From IMG/VR virus record IMGVR_UViG_3300047361_000067, positions 1 to 20,272 of that record: DNA of 20,272 nt; one strand, written 5' to 3'. The DNA is from a virus. Position 1 is the stretch's first letter; every line of letters starts with the position of its first letter. The position numbers and the translations under genes were made by a program. Under the pieces are notes generated by a model. It was not told the origin of the DNA and made no database searches. It saw only the letters and a program-made list of their open reading frames with translations. This document shows positions 5,460 to 20,272 of this stretch, in pieces.

Positions 5460-7864
5460 TGAATATATATACTAACACGAGAACTTCATTTCCTAGCCAA
5501 GTGGTTAGCGACGCAGAAAAAGCCAGTATTGAGTATGGTAAACAAGTCGCACAAGCAATAGAAGGCGAATGGTTTTCTCAAGGTAGAACAACTGGAAATA
5601 GATATTTAACAGCTTGGAATAATTTTCATAATCTAAGATTATACGCTAGAGGAGAGCAGTCTATACAAAAATATAAAGATGAATTGTCTATTAATGGTGA
5701 TTTGTCTTATCTTAATTTAGACTGGCAACCAGTACCTATATTATCAAAATTTGTTGATATAGTTGTAAATGGAATATCTGCTAGAACATACGATATAAAA
5801 GCTTACGCTCAAGATCCTGACTCTATAAAGAAAAGAACAGCTTATGCTTCTAAGATATATGAAGACATGCTGGCTAAAGATTATCTAGATGGATTAAAAG
5901 AAACATTAGGTATAGATTTGTATCAAGTTCCTAATCCAGATCAACTACCAGAAAGTGAAGAAGAGTTAGAATTACATATGCAGCTTAGTTATAAGCAGTC
6001 TATAGAAATAGCAGAAGAAGAAGCTATATCTTCTGTAATGGCTCAAAATAAATATGATTTAATAAAACGTAGATTAAACATGGACTTAACAGTTTGTGGT
6101 ATTTCTGCAGCTAAAACAAATTTTAACTTAGCTAATGGAATAACTATAGACTATGTTGATCCTGCTTACATGGTTTATTCATATACTGAAGATCCTAATT
6201 TTGAAGACATATACTACGTTGGCGAAATAAAAGCTATAACAATACCGGAACTTAAAAAAGAGTTTCCAGACTTATCTAATAAAGAGTTAGAACGTATACA
6301 AAATATGCCAGGTAATAGATCTTATATAACCGGATGGGGAGATTATGATGATAATACAGTTCAAGTTCTTTATTTTGATTATAAGACTTACCATAATCAA
6401 GTTTTTAAAATTAAACAAACAGATCAAGGCTTAATAAAAGCTATTGAAAAAGATGATAGTTTTAATCCACCTGAAAACGAAAGCTTTGAAAGAGTATCAA
6501 GATCAATCGAAGTTTTATACAGCGGAGCTAAAGTGCTAGGTACTGATACTATGTTAAAGTGGGAATTAGCTGAGAACATGTCAAGACCTTATGCTGATAC
6601 TACTAAAGTAAAAATGAACTACTCTATATGTGCGCCTAGAATATACAAAGGTAGAATAGAATCACTAGTTAGCAAGTGTATAGGTTTTGCAGATATGATT
6701 CAATTAACTCATTTAAAGTTACAGCAGGTTATGTCTAGAATAGTGCCTGATGGTGTTTACTTAGATATGGATGGTTTAGCTGAAGTTGATTTAGGTAACG
6801 GCACAAACTATAATCCAGCAGAAGCATTAAATATGTATTTCCAAACTGGTAGTATTGTTGGTAGATCACTCACGCAAGACGGTGATATGAATCCTGGAAA
6901 AGTACCAATTCAAGAACTAAACTCTAGTTCTGGTCAAGGCAAAATACAAAGCTTAATACAGACGTATCAATATTATTTACAGATGATACGCGACGTAACC
7001 GGACTTAATGAAGCTAGAGATGGTAGTACTCCAGACAAAAGCACTTTAGTAGGATTACAAAAAATGGCCGCTAACGCGTCCAATGTAGCTACTAGACATA
7101 TAAAGCAAGCTGGTTCTTATTTAACGCTTAGAATTGCAGAGAACATAGCGCTGAAAGTGGCAGATGCTTTAGAGTTTCCACTAACAGCTGAATCACTAGT
7201 TAATTCTATAAGTGACTATAATGTAAACACTCTAAAAGAAGTTGTTAATTTAAATCTTCATGATTTTGGAATATTCTTAGAGTTAGAACCAGACGAAGAA
7301 GAAAAACAACAGTTAGAACAAAACATACAAGTTGCTTTACAACAAGGTGGTATTGACTTAGAAGACGCTATTGATTTAAGGCAAATAAAAAATCTTAAAT
7401 TAGCTAACCAGCTTCTAAAAGTAAAACGTAAACAAAAAGCTGTTAAAGAACAAGAGAACGCTCAAGCTAATATAGTAGCTCAAAGTGAAGCTCAAGCTGC
7501 TGCTAATGAAAAAATAGCAATGAACGAGGTTCAAAAGCAAGAAGCTATTAGTGGTTCTAAGGTTCAATACGAGCAGTCAAGAACTCAAATGGAAATTCAA
7601 AAAATGCAAACTCAAGCTCAGCTTGATATGCAGAAGATGCAAATGCAGCATCAATTTGACGTTGAATTAGCTAAGATGCAACTTCAACAACAACAAGAAA
7701 AACAAAAACAGCAAGAAGAAGCTAAAGACAAGCGTATACAAATGGAAGGTACGCAACAAAGTAAAATGATAGAACAAAGAAAAAACAATGGACTACCTAT
7801 AGACTTTGAAAGCCAAGGTGCATCAAGTGAGCCATCTGTGGCGCAGAGTGAGCAACAAGCTTAA
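5459..7864 (+). CDS. Portal protein
   Basis: An 801-residue protein directly after the terminase (TAATG overlap), in the usual portal position. The N-terminal part has the features of portal clip and stem proteins: RYLTAWNNFHNLRLYARGEQS, DWQPVPILSKFVDIVVNGIS, and AEEEAISSVMAQNKYDLIKRRLNMDLTVCGISAAK (shown in part). A central region with VPDGVYLDMDGL, a DMIQLTHLKLQQVMSRI helix and VTGLNEARDG is characteristic. From about residue 610 to 800 the chain is a long Gln/Met/Ala/Lys-rich helical region, including MQTQAQLDMQKMQMQHQ. This could form an extended coiled-coil barrel reaching into the head, as in P22-type portals. The dodecameric ring would be the DNA gate and terminase docking site. The end (ESQGASSEPSVAQSEQQA) is disordered. 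Confidence 0.88.
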   Translation: MNIYTNTRTSFPSQVVSDAEKASIEYGKQVAQAIEGEWFSQGRTTGNRYLTAWNNFHNLRLYARGEQSIQKYKDELSINGDLSYLNLDWQPVPILSKFVDIVVNGISARTYDIKAYAQDPDSIKKRTAYASKIYEDMLAKDYLDGLKETLGIDLYQVPNPDQLPESEEELELHMQLSYKQSIEIAEEEAISSVMAQNKYDLIKRRLNMDLTVCGISAAKTNFNLANGITIDYVDPAYMVYSYTEDPNFEDIYYVGEIKAITIPELKKEFPDLSNKELERIQNMPGNRSYITGWGDYDDNTVQVLYFDYKTYHNQVFKIKQTDQGLIKAIEKDDSFNPPENESFERVSRSIEVLYSGAKVLGTDTMLKWELAENMSRPYADTTKVKMNYSICAPRIYKGRIESLVSKCIGFADMIQLTHLKLQQVMSRIVPDGVYLDMDGLAEVDLGNGTNYNPAEALNMYFQTGSIVGRSLTQDGDMNPGKVPIQELNSSSGQGKIQSLIQTYQYYLQMIRDVTGLNEARDGSTPDKSTLVGLQKMAANASNVATRHIKQAGSYLTLRIAENIALKVADALEFPLTAESLVNSISDYNVNTLKEVVNLNLHDFGIFLELEPDEEEKQQLEQNIQVALQQGGIDLEDAIDLRQIKNLKLANQLLKVKRKQKAVKEQENAQANIVAQSEAQAAANEKIAMNEVQKQEAISGSKVQYEQSRTQMEIQKMQTQAQLDMQKMQMQHQFDVELAKMQLQQQQEKQKQQEEAKDKRIQMEGTQQSKMIEQRKNNGLPIDFESQGASSEPSVAQSEQQA

Positions 7865-13556: not shown

Positions 13557-16500
13557 ATGGCTAAAGTTCAAAATACTTTTTTAAAGTCCAAGATGAATAA
13601 AGACTTGGACGCTCGTATATTACCAGAAGGTGAGTACAGAGATGCTAGAAACGCACAAATAAGTAAGTCTGAAAGTTCTCAAGTTGGAAACTTAGAAAAC
13701 ACTTTAGGTAATCATTCTATACAAAATTATCAAACGTTAACTCAAAGCACAAACATAAAATGTATAGGACATTTTTCAGATGAAATAAACTCTACAGTTT
13801 ATTTGTTTTTTACTGATTATATTGATCCTTTTCCAAACAGATTTATATATAATCCTCAAGCTAAAAACTTTATAATATCTACAAATGTTTTAACTAATCA
13901 GTCTAATATATTAGTTCAAGGTGCTTTTTTAAATTTTTCTCAAACAAATATTATAACTGGAGTTAATATACTAGAAGATCTATTATTTTTTACTGATGAT
14001 AGAAATCAACCTAGAGTAATAAATACTTTATTAGCAAACCCAGATCCTACTAATATATTTCCTACTTATTATTCAACTGAAGATCAAATATCAGTAGCTA
14101 AATATAACCCATATAGTTGCATGGAAATGTTTCAAAAAAGCACTTTAGATCCAGGCTCTTATGAAACTACTATGAAAGATGTTAGTAGTAAATTTTTACC
14201 TAACGGAGGCCAAGCTACAACTACTAGTAATCAAACAGGCGCTACTATAAATGTAGCTCTTAGTATAATAGGTCAAGTTAATACAGCAACGTCTCCTTGG
14301 GGATCTGCAAATGTTTCATTGTTTGATTCATTTGATAACACCTTAATACCTACTGGAGCAACAGTAAACAGCATCACTTTAGATACAAGCACGTCACCAA
14401 ACAGTTATAACATTGCATTAGATACTAGTATAACAACTACTTCAACAAGAAACACATTGGTGTTTGAACCAAATCCGTATTTTAACGGAGCTTTTGGTGG
14501 AGATGCAGATTACTTAGAAAGTATATTTCCAAGGTTTAGCTATAGATTTAAATTTACGGACAATACATATTCTATATTTGCACCTTTTACTCAAATAGCA
14601 TTCATACCTAAGCAAGATGGTTATTTTATGTTTGCTGAAAATCCTGATCAAGAAAAAGACGATCAAAACGAAGCTTATAGAAGTACAATAGTTTATTTTG
14701 TAGAAAACAAAGTAAACAATATTGGTTTAAGAATACCATTACCTTTTAATAACTATACTTTATCAAATGCTTTAAAAATAGAAGAGATAGATATACTGTA
14801 TAAAGAATCTGATGGCATTGCTGTTAGAGTTGTAGAAACTGTACCAATAGGCAGAGTTCAAAGTCAATCAGGTGTTTGTTTAACTAATGGTGCTCAAACA
14901 CCAGGAGCTTCGGGTAATAATATAGCAATAGATAGTCTTCAAGGCGGCATAACAATAGGTGATCCAATAACAGGTCCAGGTATTAATGATGGAACTACAA
15001 TTTTAAGTTTTACACCTACAGACCCTAGTAACGCTGTGTCTGGAAACATAACTGTAAGCTCAACTGTTCCTCAATTAGATGACAATGTTTTATTAACAAT
15101 AGGTAGTCCAAACTTTTTTGTTTATGATTACACATCTACAAAACCTACAAAAACTTTACCTGAATCTAATTTAGTTAGAGTTTTTGATAAAATACCAGTA
15201 AGAGCTAAGGCTCAAGAAGTTACTGGTAATAGAGTTATATATGGTAATTTTTTAAATAAAATTGATCCACCTGCTTTTTTAAACTATAATGTAGCTTCTA
15301 CTGTTAAACCCGAGTTTGCAATAAACGAAATAACAGCGGCTTACGCTGGAGCAGCGGCAACGTATACAGCTTTTGTAGATACTATAGCTATAAATGTATC
15401 AAAATCAGACTCACCATGGTACGTTGGGTATACTATAACTTCTAATACATACGGAGTTATAATTCCTCCAGGCACGCAAATAGCTAGTACAGATAGTAAT
15501 ACTACAGGTGCAGCTAATATAACTTTAACTGAAACAGTTACTTTTCCAGCAGGCACACCTATAAACGTTGTTTTAATAATGGAACCTGGAGCTGATACAG
15601 AAAACTCAGAATCTATTATAGAATACCCAAATCACTCTGTTAAAACAAATAGAAATTATCAAATTGGTTTTGTATTATCAGATAGATACGGAAGACAATC
15701 AAGCGTTATACTGTCTAATAATGAAACTAAAATAAAAGTTGCTGGAGTAGAATACTCAGGCTCTACTTTATTTTCTCCATATATAGATGAAAGTGTAAAT
15801 ACAACTTCTTGGCCAGGTAATTCTTTAAAAGTTTTAATGAATGAACCTATTAATGAAAATTTATATAATGGAGATGTAACAAGTGCGGATTATAATCCTT
15901 TAGGTTGGTATTCATATAAAATAGTTGTAAAGCAAACAGAACAGGAATATTACAATGTTTATCTTCCTGGTATTATGGCTTCTTATCCTGAGGATCGAAC
16001 TCTTGAAATTGGTCAAACATCTCATATTGTTTTAATAAATGATAATATAAATAAAATTCCAAGAGATTTAACAGAGGTTGGTCCTGATCAAAAACAATTT
16101 AGAAGCTCTGTTCAATTATTTGGTAGAGTTCAAAACATAACAACAGCTACTACGCCTATTTCTGGAAACACTAACACACAGTATTATCCAGGAACTAATT
16201 CAGATACTGTTTCAATAATTTCTACTGTTAATGATTTATTTGATTATAATCCTATAAACCCAAATCAACCAAATTATTTTCCTCAGTTTTATTCTTTAGA
16301 TTCAAATCCTTTAGTAGCTAGAATATCGACAGAAGCTCAAATAGGACAAATAGCAACAACTGGTCAAACATATAACTACATACCAGCCGCTGGTACTATA
16401 GTAAACCCTCCTAACACAGATGATGGTACTGGAAATCCTGTTGTTCCACTAGTACCAACAAATCAAATACTTATAACAAACGTAGCTAGCCAAACACCTA

Positions 16501-18935
16501 TTACGCTAAATAGTCTTGTAAATTATTTAGTAACAGGTCAAGGCGTGCCAGAAGGAACGTATGTAAGTGGCAATAATGCAGCAGCCGCAGATGGTAGTGT
16601 AAATAATATAACCTTAGTTAACAGCGCTAATGTTTCTGTTTTTGTAAATTTAACAGATGGAATAGAAGTGGTCTTTACACCGGCGTCAGCTACAACAGAT
16701 TTATTAACACCAGGTATTCAGTATTTAGCTGTTTACGAAACAGAAGCTGTAAAGAGTGCTATTGATATATTTTGGGAATCATCTTCAACTGGTTTAATAG
16801 GTGATCTTAACGCAGCTATACTAAACAATCAAGATCAACCTGCTGGGTCAAACATATCTTGGAATCCAAGTGAGTTTAATGAAGGTTTAGCCGCACAAGG
16901 CAGCATATTAAACGGTAACGGATTTAACATAGTAGATAATTTTGGACAAACAATAACTATAGATCCATCAACTGACACTGTAGAATTTGGAGCACCTAAC
17001 AATTTACCTGCAATAACAGATGGCTACGGAAATGACTGTAATGGATCTCCTTCTACAAGCACAACCGAAGTTAGAGATTATTTTAGACTAGTACCGCAAT
17101 CAAGCACAGGTCCTTGGCAGGTTAGAACAACATCTCAAACAGATGGTTTAGCAGAAAGTGTAAATTATTTTGATAATATTTTTTACATGTATGATGATAA
17201 CGAAGCTCTAAGGCAGTTTAATTTTAATTTTAAAATAACAGTAGGTGGTCAAGTTAATTACATAACAAATGTTCAAGCTAATCTTCAGAATGTAGCGCCT
17301 GAATACTACAAAATAACAGCTAAAAATACTGTTAATGCTGGTGATGTAACATATGGTCCAGGTGGAACTCTTCCACTTCAAGAATTTATACCTGTAAGAA
17401 CTAGAAAAAATGATGGAGATATCGCGATCATAAACTTTAGTAACGGTTCAGCTAACAAAAATGACTCGCTAAGTAGTGGAGCTTTATCTGTTAAAGATCT
17501 ACAAATAATTAATTCTTTTGGTGATAATTTTAGCGTTTATGATCAAAGAATAGGTAGTCCAAATGGACAACCAGCTGAGGTGTTATTTATGGGTGATACA
17601 GAACCTATATTTGCTATTCAAGAAGAATCTAGTAGTAGTGAAGCAGGGACTCTGCAAGTAAAACTAATAAATCAATTTGCAAATAATGAACAAGCGAACG
17701 TGCCTGCCGCTCTTTATTTTGTAACAGTACTTATACAAGATGGTCAAACTACTGTTGAACAAAAGTTTGAAATTGATATGAGACTAGAGCTCAACAACAA
17801 TAATTTTTTAAATAAATTTCAAAGATCTAAAGACTTTGGTGCAGCCGATGTTCAAGGTCAATTTAACGCAGTACCGGCCCCTGATTCGATTACTAAATAT
17901 GGGCAATGTGGTACAAACGATTTTTATATTTACGGGGAAAGCAGTAAAGACTGGAAATCTCATAATATGACATTAATAAATATACCTTCAACAACACCGG
18001 GTATAGGGAATGATGAAATTGGTTATTATATATATGCCGCTGGATTCTTTAAAAACCACAATCCAGTGTTATCACAAGGTTGCACGGAAGAATATTCTCC
18101 TAGCGTAGACTTAGTTACTTACGCTCAAAACGCTAATGAAGTTTTTAACAACACTATAACAATTCCATTTAATACTCCAAATATATGGGGTCACAAGGTT
18201 CAAAAACAAAAATCTTTTGTTACAAGTGAAAATTGGCAGCTACCGCCTTATTGTCATGGTAAAGGAAAAGTAGTTGGAACTAACATTAATGTTGATGGTA
18301 TTACATATAATTATGAAATAGAACCAGTTGGATCAGAAACAACTCAAAATGACATAAGCGCGTGTATGTTGTTTTTTAAAAATTCCTGGAATAATGGAAC
18401 CGCTGACGCAGGAGAGCATGTTAGGCAAGGAAGAAAAGCTAATACAATAAATACAGGGGATGCTTCTAATAGAATCGCCGCAGCTGTTAATTTAAACAAC
18501 GGAAACGTAGCTATTAAATTTTCACCAAATACTTATGATAATATCTCTTTACAATTAAATGATCACATATATACATATGGCGGTGGTTTTAATGAGACAA
18601 CAAGTCCTTGGTTTTTTTCCCCAGGCATAGACTCTGATTCTGTAATGAAAGTGTGGGCGATGTGGATATACAGCGAATGGCTTCCACCGTATTGGGAAAA
18701 TTCAGATAGAAATTTTTCAAGATGGTCTCCAGCGTGGGAGCCATATACTGGCCCTAACACAACGGGTGAACCCGTACCTAATTTTCCTTTAGTTATAGCT
18801 GCGTTTTCTCAAGAAGACTGGATGTCTCAGGTTAATTCTAGTTCTACACAAGAACAATGCGCTTCAGCTCCTATATATGTTAATCAAAACTACGAGGTTA
18901 CAGAGGCTAACAACTATCTTTATTCAATACAGTAA
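13557..18935 (+). CDS. Very large tail stabilization / nozzle-like protein
   Basis: At 1792 residues this is the largest gene here. The start MAKVQNTFLKSKMNKDLDARIL, given with its key MNKDLDARILPEGEYRDA core, is followed by VGNLENTLGN. This is the hallmark opening of phage tail-stabilization or nozzle proteins (P22 gp10 and T7 gp12 type), which form a beta-propeller ring under the portal. Blade-like segments follow: HFSDEINSTVYLFFTD, VNILEDLLFFTDDRNQPRVIN and FPRFSYRFKFTDNTYSIFAPF. The propeller appears to be interrupted by four modules of about 80 residues with a GIPxGT-like core (near residues 228-307, 442-519, 594-671 and 965-1051). Residues about 1060-1792 are Asn/Thr-rich beta structure with several Trp-rich turns near the end (WAMWIYSEWLPPYWENSD), suggesting a receptor-contacting region. 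No signal peptide or protease motif is seen. Confidence 0.82.
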   Translation: MAKVQNTFLKSKMNKDLDARILPEGEYRDARNAQISKSESSQVGNLENTLGNHSIQNYQTLTQSTNIKCIGHFSDEINSTVYLFFTDYIDPFPNRFIYNPQAKNFIISTNVLTNQSNILVQGAFLNFSQTNIITGVNILEDLLFFTDDRNQPRVINTLLANPDPTNIFPTYYSTEDQISVAKYNPYSCMEMFQKSTLDPGSYETTMKDVSSKFLPNGGQATTTSNQTGATINVALSIIGQVNTATSPWGSANVSLFDSFDNTLIPTGATVNSITLDTSTSPNSYNIALDTSITTTSTRNTLVFEPNPYFNGAFGGDADYLESIFPRFSYRFKFTDNTYSIFAPFTQIAFIPKQDGYFMFAENPDQEKDDQNEAYRSTIVYFVENKVNNIGLRIPLPFNNYTLSNALKIEEIDILYKESDGIAVRVVETVPIGRVQSQSGVCLTNGAQTPGASGNNIAIDSLQGGITIGDPITGPGINDGTTILSFTPTDPSNAVSGNITVSSTVPQLDDNVLLTIGSPNFFVYDYTSTKPTKTLPESNLVRVFDKIPVRAKAQEVTGNRVIYGNFLNKIDPPAFLNYNVASTVKPEFAINEITAAYAGAAATYTAFVDTIAINVSKSDSPWYVGYTITSNTYGVIIPPGTQIASTDSNTTGAANITLTETVTFPAGTPINVVLIMEPGADTENSESIIEYPNHSVKTNRNYQIGFVLSDRYGRQSSVILSNNETKIKVAGVEYSGSTLFSPYIDESVNTTSWPGNSLKVLMNEPINENLYNGDVTSADYNPLGWYSYKIVVKQTEQEYYNVYLPGIMASYPEDRTLEIGQTSHIVLINDNINKIPRDLTEVGPDQKQFRSSVQLFGRVQNITTATTPISGNTNTQYYPGTNSDTVSIISTVNDLFDYNPINPNQPNYFPQFYSLDSNPLVARISTEAQIGQIATTGQTYNYIPAAGTIVNPPNTDDGTGNPVVPLVPTNQILITNVASQTPITLNSLVNYLVTGQGVPEGTYVSGNNAAAADGSVNNITLVNSANVSVFVNLTDGIEVVFTPASATTDLLTPGIQYLAVYETEAVKSAIDIFWESSSTGLIGDLNAAILNNQDQPAGSNISWNPSEFNEGLAAQGSILNGNGFNIVDNFGQTITIDPSTDTVEFGAPNNLPAITDGYGNDCNGSPSTSTTEVRDYFRLVPQSSTGPWQVRTTSQTDGLAESVNYFDNIFYMYDDNEALRQFNFNFKITVGGQVNYITNVQANLQNVAPEYYKITAKNTVNAGDVTYGPGGTLPLQEFIPVRTRKNDGDIAIINFSNGSANKNDSLSSGALSVKDLQIINSFGDNFSVYDQRIGSPNGQPAEVLFMGDTEPIFAIQEESSSSEAGTLQVKLINQFANNEQANVPAALYFVTVLIQDGQTTVEQKFEIDMRLELNNNNFLNKFQRSKDFGAADVQGQFNAVPAPDSITKYGQCGTNDFYIYGESSKDWKSHNMTLINIPSTTPGIGNDEIGYYIYAAGFFKNHNPVLSQGCTEEYSPSVDLVTYAQNANEVFNNTITIPFNTPNIWGHKVQKQKSFVTSENWQLPPYCHGKGKVVGTNINVDGITYNYEIEPVGSETTQNDISACMLFFKNSWNNGTADAGEHVRQGRKANTINTGDASNRIAAAVNLNNGNVAIKFSPNTYDNISLQLNDHIYTYGGGFNETTSPWFFSPGIDSDSVMKVWAMWIYSEWLPPYWENSDRNFSRWSPAWEPYTGPNTTGEPVPNFPLVIAAFSQEDWMSQVNSSSTQEQCASAPIYVNQNYEVTEANNYLYSIQ
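14239..14478 (+). repeat. GIPxGT-type module, copy 1 (coding)
   Basis: Within the 1792-residue protein, about residues 228-307. Strands INVALSIIG lead to LIPTGATVNSI, then YNIALDTS and NTLVFEPNP. It follows the same order as copies 2-5 but is the most divergent, with no GxG before the IP pair. Confidence 0.4.
14880..15115 (+). repeat. GIPxGT-type module, copy 2 (coding)
   Basis: About residues 442-519 of the large tail protein: NNIAIDSLQGGITIGDPI, then GPGINDGTTILSF, then SGNITVSSTV and DNVLLTIGSPN. The core GxGIxxGTxIxS, the following xNITVS strand and the final strand match copies 3-5. Confidence 0.55.
15336..15570 (+). repeat. GIPxGT-type module, copy 3 (coding)
   Basis: About residues 594-671 of the large tail protein: FVDTIAINVSKSD, then GVIIPPGTQIAST, then AANITLTETVTFPAGTPINVV. 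The IPPGTxI core and the xNITLT strand match copies 2, 4 and 5. Confidence 0.55.
16450..16710 (+). repeat. GIPxGT-type module, copy 4 (coding)
   Basis: About residues 965-1051 of the large tail protein: NQILITNVASQTPITL, then VTGQGVPEGTYVSG, then VNNITLVNSANV and GIEVVFTPASA. It has the full GxGVPxGTxVS core. Confidence 0.6.
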
Positions 18936-18964
18936 TTTAAATATAAAACAAGTAATAATTAATT

Positions 18965-20272
18965 ATGGCAGGTGCAGTAATAGAAGTAAAATACTTTAAT
19001 ACCTTTTTGCTTAAAAAAGTAAACGATTCATCAAATAAAGTTGTTTGGAACGGTTCTAGAGGTATCCCAAAAGATATTGGAGGTTATCCTGCTATAACTG
19101 GATTAAACAATGACGATACTTGGGCTATTGAAGAATCAAGAATTAGAGGTGGGTATAATAATACTTCTGTTGATTTTGGAGCAAAAGCTTACTTAGTTGA
19201 AGACGAACCTAACGGCACAAGAAGGTTTAATACTTTAATATACTCTGGAATATTTAATTCAAGAACAGGTATAAACAATACAAATGTTTTTTCTGTAGCA
19301 GACGATATAACTAAATCAGCTGATCCAGCTAATGGTTCAATACAAAAACTATACGCTGAGGATACTAATTTAACTATATTTCAAGAGTTAAAATGCTCAA
19401 GAGCTTTAATAGATAAAGATGCTATATACTCTGCAGAAGGTGGTGGTGCTGTGACAGCTAGTAATTTAGTTATTGGTGTTATTCAACCAATAGCTGGAAA
19501 ATATGGCATATCTAAAAATCCAGAAAGTTTTGCTGTTTATGGTAATAGAAAATATTTTTCTGATGAAAACAACAATGTAATACTTAGACTTGCTGGTGGT
19601 ATAGAAGAAATATCTTCTAATGGCATGAAAGACTTTTTTAGAGACGAGATAAATAAAATAAATTCAGCTGGAGCATTAGGCAATATAATTGGAGCCTATG
19701 ATATATACGGAAGCGAATATGTTATATCTCTACAAACACCTTCTTCTTTAAGAACTGTTTCTTTTGATCCAACTCAGACTAATAATCCTGATTTATACAA
19801 GACTTTAAACTTTGACGAAAGATCTAGAGGTTGGGTTAGCTTTTTTGACTACAAGCCAGATCAAATGTTTAGTTTAAGAAATAATTTTTATTCTGTTAAA
19901 TCTACGCCAGGACGTGGAACTGTTGCTAGTAGTGGAACCGGTTTTACTTTTGTTTTAAACAATGTAAGTGGATTTATACAACAACACTCTATTGTAACAG
20001 GTACTGGTATTCCTGCTGGAACTACAGTAACTAGTTTTGTTTCTGCAACAAATACTGTGACCATCAGCATTGGAGCTACGCTGTCAGCTGGAACAATACT
20101 TAGATTTAGTAGCGTGCCACAGTTATGGAGACATTATGATAGTAGTGTTAATAGAAGTAATTTTTATGGTGTAGATTATCCAAGTACTATTACTTTTATT
20201 TTTAATCCAAACGCAACTAATTCTAAAAGTTTTAAAACAATAGGTTACGAAGGAAGTAATGGTTGGCAAGTT
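18965..20272 (+). CDS. Tail structural protein (5' part, runs off right edge)
   Basis: An ATG at 18965 (leader AATAATTAATTATG) opens a frame of 436 codons that is still open at the last base. Segments include VIEVKYFNTFLLKKV, EESRIRGGYNNTSVDFGAKAY, LIYSGIFNSRTGINNTNVFS, NGSIQKLYAEDTNLTIFQE, SRALIDKDAIYSAEGGGA, KYGISKNPESFAVYGNRKYF and a final KTIGYEGSNGWQV. Repeating strands with turns, and the pairing with the large nozzle-like gene, suggest a beta-propeller-type tail protein that completes the tail tube or its tip. The pattern is familiar from marine phage tail proteins, with no biochemical role known to me. Near residues 314-384 a GIPxGT module interrupts what should otherwise run from FSLRNNFYSVK to LWRHYDSSVNRSNFYG. 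The C-terminus lies outside the window. Confidence 0.82.
   Translation, partial: MAGAVIEVKYFNTFLLKKVNDSSNKVVWNGSRGIPKDIGGYPAITGLNNDDTWAIEESRIRGGYNNTSVDFGAKAYLVEDEPNGTRRFNTLIYSGIFNSRTGINNTNVFSVADDITKSADPANGSIQKLYAEDTNLTIFQELKCSRALIDKDAIYSAEGGGAVTASNLVIGVIQPIAGKYGISKNPESFAVYGNRKYFSDENNNVILRLAGGIEEISSNGMKDFFRDEINKINSAGALGNIIGAYDIYGSEYVISLQTPSSLRTVSFDPTQTNNPDLYKTLNFDERSRGWVSFFDYKPDQMFSLRNNFYSVKSTPGRGTVASSGTGFTFVLNNVSGFIQQHSIVTGTGIPAGTTVTSFVSATNTVTISIGATLSAGTILRFSSVPQLWRHYDSSVNRSNFYGVDYPSTITFIFNPNATNSKSFKTIGYEGSNGWQV
19905..20115 (+). repeat. GIPxGT-type module, copy 5 (coding)
   Basis: About residues 314-384 of the right-edge tail protein: GTGFTFVLNNVSGF, then VTGTGIPAGTTVTSF, then TNTVTISIGATLSAGTILRFSS. 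This is the cleanest copy of the module and appears inserted between FYSVKSTPG and VPQLWRHYD. Confidence 0.65.

Follow-up and report, generated by a model that had tools for sequence, protein, structure and literature searches.

crAss-like phages are abundant, and much is still to be learned about how their tail tip makes contact with the cell. The muzzle of crAss001 is a hexamer at the tail tip, built as a propeller with inserted domains (PMC10172136), and is thought to gate ejection and to touch the cell (Bayfield et al., 2023; PMC10172136). The domains inserted in the propeller of this protein, gp44, include Ig-like and crass domains (PMC10172136), and variation in muzzle length by insertions has already been reported (Bayfield et al., 2023; PMC10172136). 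The nozzle of phage SU10 likewise has extra domains between its propeller blades; these four domains lie at one opening and form the extending nozzle (PMC9509320). Small barrels are also found on tail-tip proteins of siphophages, as in the OB-fold extension of T5 Dit pb9 and in the baseplate barrel and Dit OB domains of JBD30. Plug-in beta domains that are modular and variable in number are also present in phage tail proteins in the form of BACON and Ig-like repeats. BACON repeats occur in tandem in crAssphage (PMC6949934).

The stretch of DNA analyzed here (the window) is a 20,272-base IMG/VR record that holds the structural block of a marine crAss-like phage, with terminase, portal, and other virion proteins. 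Its muzzle belongs to the same scaffold family as gp44 and carries a module at six sites, which we designate I to IV in the first muzzle gene and B1 and B2 in the second. In gp44, by contrast, a turn of 3 residues takes the place of B1 and the C-terminal site lacks a barrel; the study of that protein does not describe the modules (PMC10172136). Unlike the four SU10 domains at one opening, the modules are one family dispersed over six sites and variably present; unlike the tandem arrays of BACON and Ig-like repeats, they are dispersed insertions without a BACON or Ig match in Pfam. The barrels of siphophage tail tips sit on a different scaffold and have no detectable sequence similarity to the modules; structural alignments of module II with them give Z-scores of 6.4-9.0. 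Inserted nozzle domains and small tail-tip barrels are already known kinds of structure. What is new is the module family itself, the six fixed sites that it fills in some relatives and not in others, and its presence in further, unrelated proteins of the nozzle class; the open-licence papers searched yielded no description of the family.

The muzzle genes of the window

ORF A (13557..18935, + strand) encodes 1792 aa, which make up the N-terminal end and the middle of a crAss-type muzzle, or nozzle, protein. ORF B (18965..20272, + strand) is open at the window end, encodes the first 436 of ~648 aa, and forms the C-terminal part; its full length was seen in a near-identical contig, L003. Residues 5-194 of ORF A matched the N-terminal part of the PHROG 14478 profile (E = 3e-35), and ORF B aligned with positions 921-1220 in the C-terminal part of that profile. 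Pfam placed crAss_MUZ at B 120-313 and crAss_MUZ_C at B 396-436, and module B1 lies exactly in the gap that separates them. Both ends of the crAss-type muzzle (PHROG 14478/PF25731/PF25729) are therefore found in A+B in the right order, and the pair is collinear by BLAST with the muzzles of phi38:1, elemoE, Gundel_1, and Panino. Judged by these matches, ORF A and ORF B are two halves of one crAss-type muzzle protein; the sequence-only reading had called the 1792-residue product nozzle-like.

The muzzle is split at 18936-18964, the two ORFs lying 29 nt apart, and close relatives are split too, unlike crAss001 and the cultured flavobacterial phages phi38:1, Gundel_1, and elemoE, in which one ORF spans both A and B. 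The match of Panino likewise extends over two ORFs, so that being one polypeptide does not define a muzzle. The gap between A and B is ~430-510 nt rather than ~30 nt in five relatives (L041, L053, L054, L059, and L065), where an extra gene or extension may sit.

The modules had been credited with much of the great length of the protein, and this holds in part. They make up ~500 of 2440 residues and ~45% of the excess over the phi38:1 muzzle (1324 aa), but the variable region A1071-1792 accounts for a similar share of that excess. This region (16767-18932), the last 720 residues of ORF A, is highly variable, with identity down to 3-30% and frequent gaps, and is much longer than its cultured counterparts (258 aa in phi38:1); the module does not explain it.

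Module copies in the window protein

All five segments in which a GxGIPxGTxV module had been noticed were found where they had been placed, although the strict motif, GxG(I/V)xxGT, occurs in three only (A473, A994, and B346) and a looser form is present at A228 (IPTGATV) and A633 (IPPGTQI). Even without a profile, tblastn aligned B 315-410 with A 444-530 (32%, E = 3.7e-5). In the strictest test, a profile was built from the other sites in other genomes, with the window clade left out, and compared with the window protein as well as with its reversed sequence and 50 shuffled versions. Clear matches were obtained at site II (A440-525; 14874..15131, + strand; E = 1e-11) and at B1, which occupies a propeller hairpin turn (B313-386; 19901..20122, + strand; E = 4e-15). 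A sixth copy, B2, was found at ~487-563 of gene B (E = 1e-14), past the window end and seen in L003, so the count is six rather than five. Sites III (~A600-680; 15354..15599, + strand; E = 0.004) and IV (A966-1048; 16452..16700, + strand; E = 0.003) scored 9-10 bits against a background maximum of 5-8. Site I (A219-305; 14211..14471, + strand; pLDDT 82-96) was aligned over its full length at the right place at 3.4 bits, which is not significant alone. The same site holds clear modules in two relatives, L064 (E = 7e-18) and L079 (E = 8e-14), and for this reason, together with the predicted strand order described below, we accept site I as a module. The module profile gave no matches in the reversed and shuffled window proteins, and a chance motif was thereby excluded as the source of the repeat. 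The five segments and the sixth copy are one domain family of ~75 residues; that they share ancestry as a cassette domain is close to certain.

Predicted fold of the modules

The fold data cover sites I-IV and come from an AlphaFold2 model of A195-1070 made with 67 relatives (mean pLDDT 73, higher in the modules); a single-sequence AlphaFold2 model of full gene B reached a pLDDT of 31. Modules I-IV have the same predicted order of elements, namely a strand ending in an INxxN-like motif, a short strand, GxGIPxGT, a strand, the ITL strand, and a closing strand. Module II matched residues 480-556 of JBD30 baseplate chain 8rk3_b (Z 9.0, rmsd 2.0 over 70 residues), residues 90-168 of T5 pb9 (Z 6.4-6.9, rmsd 2.2 over 71 residues; module II only), and EF-Tu-type domain II (Z 6-7), and module III matched Pbp11 (7anu_B; Z 7.0) and eEF1A (Z 6.4); structural matches below Z 8 can be chance arrangements. 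The 727-residue chain 8rk3_b is most likely the JBD30 baseplate hub, since the described domains of the distal tail protein end at residue 567. Domain VI of this hub has been described as a small six-stranded barrel, to which a role in stabilizing the baseplate is ascribed rather than one in binding glycans. Modules I and IV gave no match to the small-barrel fold with the structural aligner, and Foldseek returned nothing from the PDB at E <= 0.001. Sequence searches of the PDB with ORFs A and B and an A profile yielded chance matches only, such as antibody light chains; the module profile found nothing beyond chance there at E 0.5 and did not match T5 pb9. Structure prediction thus bore out a common strand order in the four segments to which it was applied, and matches to small six-stranded barrels were obtained for II and III. 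From the models, the modules are quite probably a small beta-barrel like those of other phage tail tips.

Filled and empty sites in relatives

Eighty related loci were fetched, and the length of each site was taken between conserved anchors in 72 non-redundant relatives. All six sites proved to be bimodal: a site has either ~65-125 aa (filled, in some cases double) or 1-22 aa (empty). At site I, 71 of the 72 relatives are filled (66-109 aa, one of double length); the exception is L052 (2 aa), in which all six sites are empty. Site II measures 77-95 aa in 45 relatives and 8-13 aa in 27. Site III is 87-111 aa long when filled, of double length (~180-190 aa) in five relatives and empty (14-22 aa) in six, while site IV is filled with 83-183 aa and empty (14-22 aa) in nine. 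B1 is filled in 11 relatives (74-91 aa) and empty in 61 (3-20 aa), and B2 has 75-81 aa, a double length of 141-145 aa, or 1-20 aa when empty. Four cultured phages (phi38:1, Gundel_1, elemoE, and Panino) have 3 aa at B1 and 10 aa at site II. Site III is 6 aa in phi38:1, Gundel_1, and Panino; in elemoE (L086) an unrelated 316-aa insert lies at about this site, so the loop may accept other domains too.

These site lengths indicate that the modules are insertions at fixed sites, with the scaffold around them conserved. The module in gene B was said to interrupt a segment that runs from FYSVK to LWRHYD, and most relatives do have a 3-residue turn there, as does crAss001 gp44 (FYAFK-DGK-MWEQF, with the turn DGK). 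Comparison with homologs that lack modules gave clean empty sites with conserved flanks at all six positions, which together with the shared strand order agrees with one diversified beta domain inserted at loops.

Mapped by parsimony on the scaffold tree, the filled and empty states require 1-5 changes at each site. The combinations of modules are nearly nested: none (L052), I, I+III, I+III+IV, then with II added, then with B2 added, and all six in the window's group. The scaffold tree is midpoint-rooted, and the order of gain that this series suggests is to be read accordingly. Among 27 whole records, the module profile matched muzzle genes only and missed the four cultured phages. A profile-profile scan of the cultured muzzles gave one candidate, at the B2 position (score 26.4, E = 0.0045; next score 15.2, reversed 12.8). 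If this is a divergent copy, B2 may be the ancestral one.

Divergence and selection

The best distant relative of a module was at the same site for 253 of 271 site segments. The insertions are therefore old, their copies having long evolved in place, much as the sequence-only reading had supposed when it called them old and diversified; recent duplication within the window genome is excluded on the same ground. Modules at different sites of one ORF A are unusually alike in L064 and L079 (e.g., VNQAQTL), which suggests more recent copying between sites in their lineage.

Identity to relatives is mostly 60-96% in the scaffold blocks that flank the modules and 11-27% in the modules. Relative to L005, dN/dS was 0.15 for the A scaffold, 0.07 for the B scaffold, and 0.18-0.32 for the modules, and synonymous divergence was also raised in modules I, IV, and B1. 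The window was also compared with the near-identical contigs L003 and L004. Of the differences from L003 in modules or core, 14 of 15 fall in modules, though nine of these 14 are adjacent changes in the linker that precedes module IV (16419-16428) and may go back to a single event; of those from L004, 10 of 13 do so. In these alignments the modules diverge faster than the scaffold. Because synonymous changes are raised in the modules and dN/dS is below 1, the data point less to clear positive selection than to recombination or a local hotspot. At the linker where the alleles of the window and L004 differ from that of L003 (window 16419-16428), contig L014 has a frameshift in ORF A, around its position 7450, which looks like a mixed-strain assembly consensus.

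Proposed role of the modules

We favor, as the likelier account overall, a swappable exterior decoration of the ejection nozzle by plug-in barrel cassettes. The small beta-barrel of ~75 residues would serve as a cassette in the muzzle, the hexameric nozzle that closes the tail tip. By analogy with the architecture of crAss001, the module sites would be exposed loops, in which case a muzzle hexamer would carry 36 barrels outside the channel. Such cassettes could let the phage vary the envelope-facing part of the nozzle without disturbing propeller and gate, and weak contacts of the barrels with surface polysaccharide or outer membrane might help to seat the nozzle before it opens. Receptor or glycan binding and a part in host range, as put forward in the sequence-only reading, are likewise conjectural. 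Whether contact with the host envelope is the main role of the modules seems to us evenly balanced.

The main rival is that the barrels are structural spacers, which brace adjacent subunits of the muzzle or make the nozzle thicker and have no binding partner on the host. It owes this standing to the stabilizing role described for the six-stranded JBD30 baseplate barrel, the best structural match, and to the nozzle domains of SU10, which touch neighboring subunits and stabilize the tail; selection on the modules is purifying, as bracing would also have it. However, each of sites II, III, IV, B1, and B2 lacks a module in some or many relatives, and all six are empty in L052, so no module is needed for assembly in general; the modules also change far more quickly than the scaffold, which is not the behavior of an interface. 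We regard bracing as a serious contender that is nonetheless rather doubtful. Quite improbable, in our judgment, are selfish or neutral insertions, that is, domains spread by recombination to sites that tolerate them, with little effect. Sites that are short turns, the raised synonymous divergence inside modules between close phages, and the cross-site similarity within single genomes (L064 and L079) would all fit such spread, but purifying dN/dS, conservation of the core motif and predicted fold, and long inheritance at the same site argue that the modules are maintained.

It is hardly credible that the modules are not insertions but integral to the propeller or crass fold, as blades or domains of it. 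Nearly all close relatives have site I filled, and the divergent B2 copy in cultured relatives could mean that B2 is native to the muzzle. Against this, each of the six positions has an empty form of 1-22 aa between conserved flanks, and the B1 turn has 3 residues in crAss001 and the cultured phages; for II, III, IV, B1, and B2, the empty sites already contradict an integral blade. Returning to exterior decoration, a role in decorating the tail tip is testable in the natural series of muzzles, which share one conserved scaffold and range from no module to six.

Occurrence outside the muzzle

A DNA pattern scan of viral contigs found at least 120 contigs, at least 83 of them with a module by profile, in counts biased towards the GxGIPxGTTVV subtype, whose copies the scan favors. 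Among the matches listed, 28 of 40 non-redundant carriers match PHROG 3287, whose relatives are annotated as stabilization proteins; other carriers in this set match crAss_MUZ (two), Phage_nozzle (T7-type; one), and Baseplate_J (one). The PHROG 3287 'phage stabilization' proteins (e.g., L207 and MW202545) have the same module as the muzzle by profile, but their scaffold family is different by sequence and they mostly carry one copy per protein. Filled and empty states occur here too, the site of the module in the stabilization protein being cleanly empty in Caulobacter phage RLK. The module had been noticed in two adjacent tail genes, and both do carry copies; it is not special to the window phage and extends to unrelated phages. 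We consider it unlikely, though worth stating, that the module is an uncatalogued small-barrel cassette, inserted and swapped by recombination in surface loops of ejection nozzles across unrelated phages, an ancestral C-terminal barrel of flavobacterial crAss-like muzzles having colonized five further loops and driven fast change in host contact.

A search of viral contigs with a single module reached the window's own clade only, and tblastn with the module consensus found no matches in phage and plasmid records. In Pfam, the 59 module members had no convincing family match, including BACON, Ig-like, and carbohydrate-binding families (best E = 0.011; CBM49 at 0.018 in one member), and no curated Pfam or NCBIfam family covers them. 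Since this recurring nozzle part lacks a curated family, the module profile would improve the annotation of its carriers. PHROGs gave scattered weak matches to phage structural families. A second recurrent stretch was observed in the L207 protein (490-574) and twice in the L099 protein (28-142 and 495-595); it matches many PHROG structural families (6005, 5342, 438, and 4406) and is apparently a further domain of the plug-in type in phage structural proteins.
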